Assembly (NCBI RefSeq): GCF_001011155.1
Contig: NZ_CP011479.1
Coordinates: 2,312,501-2,376,500, forward strand
Length of the DNA: 64,000 bases
From: Hoeflea sp. IMCC20628
GTDB taxonomy: Bacteria; Pseudomonadota; Alphaproteobacteria; Rhizobiales; Rhizobiaceae
Direction: 5' to 3'
Within the stretch, counting starts at the first letter, position 1. Each line of letters opens with the position of its first letter. Under the pieces are notes generated by a model that worked only from the letters and a program-made list of their open reading frames with translations, was not told where the DNA came from and did no database searches. A program made the position numbers and the translations under genes. This document shows positions 23,950-26,958 of this stretch, piece after piece.

Positions 23950-24025
23950 GCCCTTGTAGCTCAGTTGGTAGAGCACCTGATTTGTAATCAGGGGGTCACG
24001 GGTTCGAATCCTGTCGGGGGCACCA
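23950..24025 (+). tRNA. tRNA-Thr (anticodon TGT)
   Basis: A 76-nt cloverleaf: acceptor GCCCTTG/CGGGGGC, D-arm TAGCTCAGTTGGTAGAGC, anticodon loop TTTGTAA, T-arm GGTTCGAATCC and an encoded CCA. Its 3' half (from the anticodon arm onwards) is repeated exactly at 26911-26958, marking it as the integration site of the adjacent island. Confidence 0.97.
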
Positions 24026-24027
24026 TT
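23980..24027 (+). repeat. Left attachment repeat (attL) inside tRNA-Thr
   Basis: The 48 bp from the anticodon arm through CCA plus two T are identical to 26911-26958. Tyrosine recombinases typically use a tRNA 3' half as attB and rebuild the tRNA on integration, which fits this arrangement. Confidence 0.9.
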
Positions 24028-24470
24028 TTTCTTAATGATTACAAATGCTTACATGCATTGTAATTGCCCTATACGAACTTTTTTCGGTTCGTATTACGCA
24101 CTTCCACCCTTTTGCTACAATTTTAAGCCTGTCTAAAAATTCGGCATTTCCACCTATGCGCGATTTTTGATCGAACATTTCGCACAGTTCACGAATTTTA
24201 TCGCGGGCTCGAATAAGGGCTCTGCATAATCACTTGGCGCTAACACCACCGACAATTGGGTATTCTGGAATTCTTCGCATCGCTAGCCAACGATGCGGTC
24301 GACAGTCCGGTTAAAATCGGTGTTGTCGCTGGCTAGCCCAATTCAAATTTTCTTGGACCGCAATTACTGCACACCATCAACCATTCTGAGAATCCTTACT
24401 GCCCTCACTGGTTGACTCCCCTCCAAGACTCGCGGATGGATTTAAACGTTCACAGATCGGCACCTAATTC
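24026..24470. other. Non-coding left end of the island with inverted repeats
   Basis: No gene is seen. An imperfect palindrome (ATTACAAATGC and GCATTGTAAT) starts 12 bp after the tRNA end. ATACGAAC/GTTCGTAT (24071-24094) is a perfect 8-bp stem with a T-rich loop. GCTAGCCA (24282-24289) pairs with TGGCTAGC (24330-24337), and overlapping CGCATCG/CGATGCG (24276-24297) gives a competing hairpin. These could be recombinase-accessory sites or a structured RNA. Confidence 0.5.
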
Positions 24471-24800
24471 ATGAATCGCTTAGCAATCATTCTTACAATC
24501 GTCCTCATCGCTGCAGGATGCGCCAAACGACCCGACGCGATCGTGCCGACATCCATTTCGAGCGATATTTATACGGCTTTGGACTGCAAGCAGATAGGAG
24601 ACGAGCTCGCCCGCGAAACGCAGACCTTAACTACGCTTTCGCGCGCCCAGAACGATGCGGCTACGGGAGATGCTTTCAGCGTGTTCGTAATTGGCGTGCC
24701 GCTCGCCAGCGCGGCAGGCGGCAACAAGGAAGGGCTCATCGCCGTATCAAAGGGCAAAGTGCAGGCGCTGGAAGGCGCGAAGCTGCGCAAGAGTTGCTGA
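24471..24800 (+). CDS. Small putative lipoprotein
   Basis: A 109-residue protein with a lipoprotein signal: MNRLAIILTIVLIAAGC, with the lipobox Ala-Ala-Gly-Cys placing the acylated cysteine at residue 17. The mature part (SDIYTALDCKQIGDELARE and then NKEGLIAVSKGKVQALEGA) includes a hydrophobic stretch around FSVFVIGVPLASAAGG. It resembles small lipoproteins of unknown function found in alphaproteobacterial chromosomes and mobile DNA. It is the first gene of the island, about 200 bp before the ATPase gene. The gap after it (24801-25000) holds only an unconvincing open frame. Confidence 0.7.
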   Translation: MNRLAIILTIVLIAAGCAKRPDAIVPTSISSDIYTALDCKQIGDELARETQTLTTLSRAQNDAATGDAFSVFVIGVPLASAAGGNKEGLIAVSKGKVQALEGAKLRKSC

Positions 24801-25000
24801 ACTGCGGCGACCTTTGCGGCACGGCCATCACTTATGCCTATGCCAAGAACGCCTCGCCCGAGCAGATTGCCAAAGTTTCCGGCGGTTTGCGGTTTGACGA
24901 AAATGTAAGTTGGGCTGCAACTTAAGATGCGCGACATTTACCTCTACAGGTAAGCATGAAACCTTAAGGCGACATTGAAAATCTAAGGGGGGAGGATTCG

Positions 25001-26647
25001 GTGCAACTCAGATCGATACGGATAGAAAAATTCAAGCGGATCGAATCTATCGATTTGCCTCTTGCAGACCTAAACATACTTGTGGGCTCCAACGGGAGCG
25101 GGAAGTCGTCAATACTTCAGGCGCTACATCTTGCATCATGCCTCATGCGCCAAGCTGATCGAATTCGAGCTAGTACAACGGTGATGGTGCGGGTCAGTGA
25201 TCTCGACTATCTTCCTTCAGATCAATATTGGCGCCTAGGCCACGGCGCTGACTGGGGCAACAGATCAAACAGCCCCTCTACTAAGGTGTTTTTTGAGTTC
25301 CGGGATCACGAGGGAGCGCCAATAACAGCTCAGTGCGAAATGCGATCGGCAAGAAACGCTGGCATCTCGGTCCAAGGAGAACTTCCCGAAACGTTGCGAA
25401 CCCAGTTCCGTGGTGCTGACAACTTTTTCAGCGGATTTATTCCCGGGATATCTGGCATTCCGAACGTCGAGCAAAAGAACTCTAAGAGGGTTGTTTTGAA
25501 GGCGTGTTCGTTTGGTGATTCAAACGTCTATCTTCGCAACGCATTGGATCTTCTGTCTGCTGACGAATTGATCCAAATCGAAACTTGGCTGGAGCCGCTC
25601 CTAGGTGAAATCAAGTTGAAGGTAAAATTCGATCAGACGGAAGATTTCGATATTCACGCGGAGGCAGAAATTGGCGGCCTATCAATTCCGCTCGAGTTGC
25701 TCGGAACCGGATATCTGCAACTAATACAAATATTCTGTTACATTTTGCTTTTTAAACCCAAGATACTTCTGGTTGATGAACCAGATATCCATCTGCACCC
25801 GAGTGTGCAGGAAAAACTTGCTGTAAGCCTCCTGCAAATTGCTCGCATCCAGGGCATCAAGATAATCATGACTACACACTCTCCGTTTATTGTGAGAGGT
25901 GCGCCGGCAGGAACAAACGTCGTGTGGCTAGCAGATGGCCAGAAAAAGACTGACGAACGATCCGTTGTCGAACTCGCGTTGGGCTGGGGCGCCTTTGGCA
26001 AAAAGGTAATTGTAGTCAGCGAAGACGCGAAGAATGACCTGCTGAAAAAGCTCATTCGCCAGTGGCCCGAGATCGAACAGGCGGTGACGGTACTCCCAGG
26101 GAGGGGATATAAGCACTTGTTGACCAAGGCTGAGGCAGAAGAACTCAGAGCTTCCCTAGGTGGTAAATTTAAGGTGCTAGTGCATCGAGATCGCGACTCC
26201 CTCACCGATGCCGAAGTCACTCAGTTGAAAGATTCATATGCCAGCGATGGTATCCGGCTGTGGGTGACGGATCAGTCGGATATCGAAGCTGAATTCTGTG
26301 ATCCAGGATTCCTATCTTCGTTGACAGGTGAGCCAATCCACACGTGTGAAACTTGGCTGTCCGAAATCCTGACCCAAAATCAAGCCCCGATTGGAGATCA
26401 GTTCAGTAATCAACGTGCGGCGCATAATCAAGAGCTGCATAAGGCTGGAGGTAGCCCAACCAATGATGACGTGTGGGCTGTATTTCAAGAGCGATCTTTG
26501 AAAGGCGCCAAGGGAAAATATGTTTTTGGGCAGTTGAAGAACAAGGTTCCGGCAAATGGGTTTTCAGACTCTACAGTCGATTTGCAGACGGACTATCCAG
26601 AACGCGCGGCAAGCCTCAAAGCTAACTTGAAAGACCTGATTGCCTAA
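25001..26647 (+). CDS. OLD-like ATPase with a TOPRIM-type C-terminal domain (putative defence nuclease)
   Basis: A 548-residue protein starting at GTG 25001 behind GGGGGGAGGA. Residues 1 to about 325 form an ABC/SMC-type ATPase: FKRIESIDLPLADLNILVG, Walker A GSNGSGKSS (29-37), signature-like LLGTGYLQL, Walker B ILLVDEPDIHLHP and H-loop MTTHSPF. The rest looks like a TOPRIM or DUF4435-type domain: VIVVSEDAKNDLLKKL with the acidic residue, then VLVHRDRDSL with paired aspartates, then DIEAEF. This organisation is shared by OLD nucleases, GajA of Gabija and the AriA/AriB pair of PARIS (fused forms exist). No GajB-like helicase or second subunit is adjacent. Nuclease activity and phage defence are inferred. 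Confidence 0.8.
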   Translation: MQLRSIRIEKFKRIESIDLPLADLNILVGSNGSGKSSILQALHLASCLMRQADRIRASTTVMVRVSDLDYLPSDQYWRLGHGADWGNRSNSPSTKVFFEFRDHEGAPITAQCEMRSARNAGISVQGELPETLRTQFRGADNFFSGFIPGISGIPNVEQKNSKRVVLKACSFGDSNVYLRNALDLLSADELIQIETWLEPLLGEIKLKVKFDQTEDFDIHAEAEIGGLSIPLELLGTGYLQLIQIFCYILLFKPKILLVDEPDIHLHPSVQEKLAVSLLQIARIQGIKIIMTTHSPFIVRGAPAGTNVVWLADGQKKTDERSVVELALGWGAFGKKVIVVSEDAKNDLLKKLIRQWPEIEQAVTVLPGRGYKHLLTKAEAEELRASLGGKFKVLVHRDRDSLTDAEVTQLKDSYASDGIRLWVTDQSDIEAEFCDPGFLSSLTGEPIHTCETWLSEILTQNQAPIGDQFSNQRAAHNQELHKAGGSPTNDDVWAVFQERSLKGAKGKYVFGQLKNKVPANGFSDSTVDLQTDYPERAASLKANLKDLIA

Positions 26648-26910
26648 TCGTACATTCAGGAAACGAGTTTTCGGCTGTTCCGGTCGCTGACCCAAATCCC
26701 CTAGGCATCCCGAAAACGCCTCCTTGAAGCGCCTGGCGCTGCGCGGCCTCGGCTTGGCGTCCGGTGCAGACACAGACGATTGATCGCGTTCAGGTTGCGA
26801 CATATGCAAGAAACGAATTACGAACCGGGGGTGATCGACCCTGAGAGACGCTGAGAGGAAAATGGCCCCAATAGTGCGTAAAATCCGCAGCAGAGGTGGG
26901 TTGCCGCGCA

Positions 26911-26958
26911 ATTTGTAATCAGGGGGTCACGGGTTCGAATCCTGTCGGGGGCACCATT
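26911..26958 (+). repeat. Right attachment repeat (attR)
   Basis: A perfect 48-bp copy of the tRNA-Thr 3' half (23980-24027). The 5' half of a tRNA is absent before it, so this is not a gene. It marks the right border of the island. Confidence 0.9.

Follow-up and report, generated by a model that had tools for sequence, protein, structure and literature searches.

Hoeflea sp. IMCC20628 carries, at the 3' end of a tRNA-Thr(TGT) gene, a small island enclosed by exact 48-nt repeats, which we interpret, at a probability of roughly 0.7, as the decayed remnant of an integrase-bearing element that would have lost its integrase and kept its cargo and both repeats. The island lies in the 64,000-nt stretch analysed here (the window; contig NZ_CP011479.1, positions 2,312,501 to 2,376,500 of the forward strand), whose own numbering is used for all unprefixed coordinates. 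The ancestor would have been of the type found at the same tRNA gene in the genome designated G005 (G000 is the window's own genome, and other G numbers denote relatives), and the island is most likely a decayed passenger of an already known kind. A previous sequence-only reading of this DNA had proposed either a satellite-like element mobilised in trans or a remnant with a defence cargo; that interpretation is partly supported, in that an integrase-like fragment favours the remnant, while for the satellite no resident helper was found.

Exact repeats and an integrase-like fragment

The integration target is a tRNA-Thr(TGT) gene called by ARAGORN at 23950–24025 (+ strand). Its 3' half forms the left attachment (att)-like core repeat (23980–24027, +) and is identical at 48/48 nt to the right one (26911–26958, +); the exact match can be extended no further, and the repeat lengthens to 55 nt if two mismatches are allowed. 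For an exact repeat at this tRNA such a length is far above chance, and the earlier description of a 48-bp mismatch-free repetition is confirmed. Also borne out is the higher AT content: the 2883 bp between the repeats have 50.4% GC against 57.9% for the window, and only 0.5% of sliding 2883-bp windows in the 64 kb are equal or lower (the lowest starts at 23801). Two convincing genes lie between the repeats, a lipoprotein-like open reading frame (ORF) and an ATPase gene, with neither a recombinase nor a transfer gene. The hallmarks of a tRNA island are all present: the far end repeats the tRNA 3' terminus, the base composition is foreign, and relatives lack the DNA.

The right repeat might have proved to be an old tRNA duplication, as the sequence-only reading itself cautioned, and we checked it for this; ARAGORN finds no tRNA at 26911–26958, which is thus not a duplicated whole tRNA. 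An old partial duplication within ordinary variable chromosome would accord with the presence of half a tRNA only on the right side and with the absence of an intact recombinase nearby. We nonetheless consider it barely credible: the repeat runs from the anticodon stem to just past the CCA, which is the usual att layout; islands in G002, G003 and G005 share this layout and have integrase genes or pieces; and the copy carries the T-stem pair of this lineage (see below) with zero mismatches.

That no intact recombinase gene is encoded between the repeats, as had been claimed, holds; overlooked, and newly recognized here, was a degraded fragment of about 27 codons at 24806–24886 (+) that resembles the catalytic box of the G005 tyrosine integrase, with its Arg and His lost, detected both by DNA match and by profile search. 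In an all-against-all comparison of the DNA 3' of the tRNA, positions 24808–24883 aligned to G005 over 76 bp with 76% identity (E = 5e–8), and the match falls inside a gene for a 338-amino-acid (aa) integrase, a Phage_integrase member, at +159 to +1175 from the tRNA. Fragment and gene follow the same tRNA in the same orientation, the box lying at +783 to +858 here and at +1004 to +1079 in G005; the aligned peptides are GDLCGTAITYAYAKNASPEQIAKVSGG (window) and HDLRGTAITYAYANGATIEQIAEISGH (G005). A profile of nine integrases, picked by the analyst as closest, was searched against 1636 six-frame peptides of the window and placed the fragment first at E = 2e–5 (runner-up, 0.14); with a profile of all 31 integrases the same peptides gave 2e–4 and 0.13. 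The 41-aa fragment peptide scored 38.1 bits against the G005 integrase, compared with 26.9 bits for the best of 200 shuffled copies (4936 hits). In the 31 integrase homologs, of which two contain an internal stop, eight columns are conserved at 95% or more; the fragment retains six of the eight, without the invariant R and H. Nearest to the G005 integrase, yet short, the fragment favours derivation of the island by loss from an integrase-bearing element. No integrase of its type was found in G000 at E 1e–15, and the 41-aa peptide had no plasmid match and no phage match. Relatives of the G005 integrase within the family (loci L168–L197) lie near many tRNA genes (Lys, Pro, Gln, Arg, Thr, Met), with a tRNA within the 1.5-kb flanks at 24 of the 30 loci.

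The tRNA-Thr(TGT) site in related genomes

Comparison of this tRNA locus across relatives, suggested with the sequence-only reading, showed strong variation. Of the 18 genus genomes, 15 (G000 and 14 relatives) yielded the tRNA together with the flank upstream of it; G009, G011 and G015, which gave only tRNA-like matches, were omitted. G000, G002, G003 and G005 have a second core downstream; none was seen within 1.8–12.3 kb downstream in the loci of the other 11 relatives, and six of those 11, searched genome-wide with a stricter pattern, had one core copy each. Three of the 14 relatives thus have islands at the same tRNA, all different from that of the window. In the 10-kb island of G003 (L051:7137-17270) the gene for a 394-aa tyrosine integrase adjoins the far repeat, and the island also encodes a serine recombinase, an HTH_17 protein and, side by side, an AAA ATPase and a subtilase; the G005 island (L054:6200-12640; 6.4 kb) holds its integrase gene and a 1509-aa ORF of ~75-bp repeats. 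In G002 the island spans 21 kb and contains integrase pieces, and its far flank matches the G012 flank at 93% over 2.8 kb, as expected if G012 has an emptier site. The window's island shares with those of G003 and G005 the target and the core layout, and has its closest integrase in G005; those islands differ from it in retaining an integrase gene and in their cargo.

The closest relative, G017 (sister at 100/100 in a tree built on 1.5 kb upstream), has no second core within 10 kb downstream and matches the window only from ~43.9 kb onward. In G007 and G016 conserved chromosome (a penicillin-binding protein gene, then ribonuclease E) resumes 1.2–1.7 kb from the tRNA; in the window it resumes ~27 kb away, and this late return means that the whole intervening DNA, with its transporter and sugar-kinase genes, is variable. 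The tRNA-Thr(TGT) gene is a hotspot, with signs of tandem insertion.

Such signs are seen in G005, where the 157 bp after the tRNA recur after the far repeat, 88% alike. Past the right repeat of the window's island, the adjoining DNA (26969–27063, +) resembles the flanks of other tRNA-Thr sites: the right-repeat flank matches the far-repeat flank of G003 at 77% over 164 bp, core included, and 26969–27036 matches the flank of the G003 tRNA-Thr(GGT) gene at 79%. Perhaps 26969–27063 is the end of an older neighbouring element. The recurring flank in G005 and the right-repeat flank in the window, together with a lipoprotein ORF that ends directly before the integrase-like fragment as if joined there, would suit a different origin of the island, as the product of deletion or recombination in a tandem array, with ends from two different islands and the ATPase gene brought in by ordinary recombination. 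We think this decidedly unlikely, since there is no direct junction evidence and a single integration followed by decay takes fewer steps.

The tRNA ends themselves differ among the loci. The first T-stem pair of tRNA-Thr(TGT) is G-C in 12 of the 15 and A-U in G000 and G003; three further pairs differ in G005, whose T-arm is unlike the rest of the genus. In G000, G003 and G005 the distal core copy carries the local T-stem type, a pattern consistent with element-borne copies having replaced the tRNA ends. G000 and G003 may, however, owe their A-U form to shared descent; the tree groups them with weak support (88/92). Of 394 family genomes, 63 match the pattern, and in that sample, which did not include G003 and G005, the combination of an A-U pair with this stem is confined to G000.

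Matches elsewhere to the island as a whole are sparse. The left part matched 18 of the 394 family genomes, G000 included, mostly through lipoprotein-like stretches and short pieces, one of which is a 31-bp match at 90% within a G300 integrase gene; on plasmids there was no match for the left part nor for the right part. Near the island ends, a 14-nt inverted pair (24085–24098 and 26814–26827, both given on the + strand; 86% complementary) is a weak candidate for integrase arm sites and may be a chance match. The islands of G003 and G002 have, as judged by eye, GTAAGC-type direct repeats with 11-bp spacing at both ends; no such pair was seen by eye at the ends of the window's island.

Helpers, age and possible mobility

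We infer the following order of events. A site-specific island would have entered the 3' end of the tRNA-Thr(TGT) gene by tyrosine-integrase recombination, the incoming copy of the tRNA 3' half keeping the tRNA whole and a matching repeat being left at the far end. Its ancestor was probably of the G005 type, with the integrase gene directly 3' of the tRNA and in the same reading direction; most of that gene would then have been lost or replaced, leaving the ~27 codons, from which the conserved Arg and His are missing. Between the two intact cores there is now a cassette of a lipoprotein gene and a stand-alone OLD/PtuA/AriA-type ATPase gene, presumably anti-phage. The island would not excise itself, and an incoming element with a same-core integrase might mobilise it, either in trans or once inserted in tandem.

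Several observations weigh against descent from a G005-type element. The fragment is short, and Pfam does not recognise 24806–24886. The remaining integrases score it at 27.3 bits at most (25–27), no better than the shuffled copies at 26.9, so that G005 alone stands above the shuffles. At the DNA level an MFS (major facilitator superfamily) transporter gene of G122 (MFS_1) matches the second half of the fragment, in a gapped 62-bp alignment at 77%; we set aside an origin as a piece of such a transporter gene, the G005 integrase match being longer, ungapped and located in an island at the same tRNA. The ends of the window's island share no clear sequence with those of the G002, G003 or G005 islands, and no island-free strain of the same species was present among the genomes compared. 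Finally, the repeats are perfect, contrary to expectation for an old remnant.

This last point bears on age. The sequence-only reading had taken the perfect repeats to suggest recent integration, which they make plausible, but a decayed integrase fits badly with it: repeats without a mismatch imply that recombination last took place not long ago, and the fragment, by contrast, looks old. A rough hand estimate of the divergence of the fragment is 3 changes in ~18 sites, with a 95% range of 0.036–0.41 per site; the chance of 48 unchanged repeat sites would be 0.17 at 0.036 changes per site and 4e–4 at 0.15. Movement after the death of the integrase is therefore a genuine though unproven possibility; the perfect repeats would also be explained by an integrase already decayed on arrival, or by an exchange importing the whole locus.

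A mover for the island was sought in the whole genome (G000; 5.12 Mb, 3 contigs). The 35-nt inner core, with up to 3 mismatches allowed, occurs in three copies, all exact: the two island repeats and C1:3750063-3750097. The third copy lies inside an array at tRNA-Thr(GGT) (L049:9821-9895 to L158:11243; G000:C1:3734820-3770243) that has three integrase genes, one of them truncated, each directly following a copied tRNA 3' end; the DNA between the integrase genes encodes a reverse transcriptase, an RNase H, a serine resolvase and a type I restriction system. The third TGT core (in L050:8050-8170; G000:C1:3750050-3750170) lies 87 bp after the integrase gene int#2 and is followed by ~100 bp resembling the tRNA-Thr(TGT) flank of G013, G008, G007 and G001. 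It was first taken for a displaced chromosomal tRNA flank, and its location inside the GGT array made that reading uncertain. Phage_integrase matches number 15 in the genome, and the G003 integrase is matched by 7 of these 15 loci, at best at 34%, two of the 7 being one gene. Neither island repeat has one of the 15 integrases alongside; the third core copy has int#2, which looks GGT-specific: it follows a GGT core, and its G009 relative adjoins tRNA-Thr(GGT). We accordingly rejected int#2 as a demonstrated helper and keep it as a distant possibility. The search for an integrase with att sites matching the core, which the sequence-only reading had called for, thus met only this one other core copy, and no resident helper was found. 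The tRNA hot spots listed for Sinorhizobium meliloti include tRNA-Thr(GGU) (PMC11476347).

Helper-dependent elements have been described (PMC11389934), and the island might be a working minimal satellite that had been without an integrase for some time, was moved in trans by tRNA-Thr integrases and entered its site after its own integrase had died. The absence of change in the repeats (0/48), beside a fragment that has lost 2 of 8 conserved residues, argues for it, as do the third exact core adjoining int#2 in the GGT array of the same genome and the integrase-bearing islands of relatives at this tRNA, which could act as helpers. It is weakened by the resemblance of int#2 to a tRNA-Thr(GGT) integrase, by a divergence estimate based on ~18 hand-counted sites, and by the lack of a second copy of the cassette among 393 other family genomes, plasmids and 17 genus mates. 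We judge it unlikely, and hold equally doubtful an extended version in which a hitchhiker of two tRNA cores and one defence gene may pass between TGT and GGT sites, given the TGT core present within the GGT array.

As a decayed remnant, the island resembles the cis-mobilizable elements (CIMEs), whose definition and tandem scenario are given in PMC5704250. Like those among the ICESt1-related Streptococcus islands described there, it has att-like repeats at both ends, has lost integration genes and kept cargo, and lies at a site with signs of tandem insertion; both repeats are retained at 48/48 nt, and no functional integration or transfer genes are present. It differs from them in being smaller and in giving no sign of a conjugative ancestor, and its mobilisation is predicted from sequence. 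In Dehalococcoides, 15 ssrA islands without an integration module are reported (PMC3146451); as with those, the module is missing at an RNA gene where other islands carry one, although site and cargo differ and part of the integrase is apparently still legible here. The window clearly illustrates how an island may turn into an integrase-less passenger with intact attachment repeats: a residue of the lost integrase can apparently still be read, and two further species of the genus have integrase-bearing islands at this tRNA. Whether a visiting integrase can move such remnants is directly testable with a very small construct.

Cargo genes

The sequence-only reading gave the content as a lipoprotein and an OLD/PARIS-like protein; the second label stands for the ATPase part alone. 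The gene at 25001–26647 (+) encodes a stand-alone ATPase of 548 aa related to OLD, PtuA and AriA, with Pfam matches to AAA_15 (E = 1.5e–28) and AAA_21 (E = 9e–22). Among 167 PADLOC families the best match was NsnB (E = 6e–34, residues 3–301), followed by AriA (E = 8e–30) and fused AriAB (E = 4e–24), with PtuA, Old and GajA lower; the best NCBIfam match was PtuA, yet far under its cut-off. Solved structures matched over short stretches only: OLD (6p74, E = 3.7e–9, residues 3–44), the retron Ec83 ATPase and PtuA. The protein has the N-terminal ABC-type ATPase of OLD-family nucleases; its C-terminal 220 residues (329–548) match no Pfam family at E 10, so that no Toprim domain is seen, and its structure model is poor (mean predicted local distance difference test, pLDDT, 46.5). 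OLD membership is therefore only half shown, since the C-terminal part has no Pfam match and the model is unusable. No further long ORF adjoins the ATPase gene within the island as a separate candidate for AriB, which accompanies AriA, separate or fused, in PARIS. On these matches it is a probable anti-phage defence gene. YbjD is a stand-alone OLD protein (PMC13261556), and the island's gene is likewise a single gene with an OLD-like ATPase part; it differs in that no Toprim domain was detected in its C-terminal 220 residues and that its anti-phage role is predicted.

This gene adds a stand-alone OLD/PtuA/AriA-type ATPase, 73–84% identical in distant bacteria, to island cargo. These close relatives lie on four contigs, of Sphingomonas, Phenylobacterium, Sphingopyxis and Ruegeria (partial, at a contig end); in the four of six contig pairs that were compared, the ATPase gene is shared and otherwise only 22–29 bp. 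It is missing from 17 of 17 genus mates (E 1e–10), and relatives at 30–34% occur in 5 of 393 other family genomes. Plasmid relatives were found on 14 records, every one below 60% identity. In Sphingopyxis panaciterrae the relative (L124:6001-7645) consists of two overlapping ORFs in different frames, so that this gene may be broken by a frameshift.

The lipoprotein-like ORF (24471–24800, +; 109 aa), recognized from a lipobox read by eye, has no Pfam match and no match among phage sequences. Its relatives are 45–68% identical in 13 loci compared and 52–60% on 6 plasmids; plasmid matches, both of the lipoprotein and of one integrase region of this genome, are mostly from Rhizobium, Mesorhizobium and kin. 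On the contig of G004 that bears tRNA-Thr(TGT), a 62% relative of the lipoprotein (L159:1394-1678) lies ~12.8 kb beyond that tRNA.

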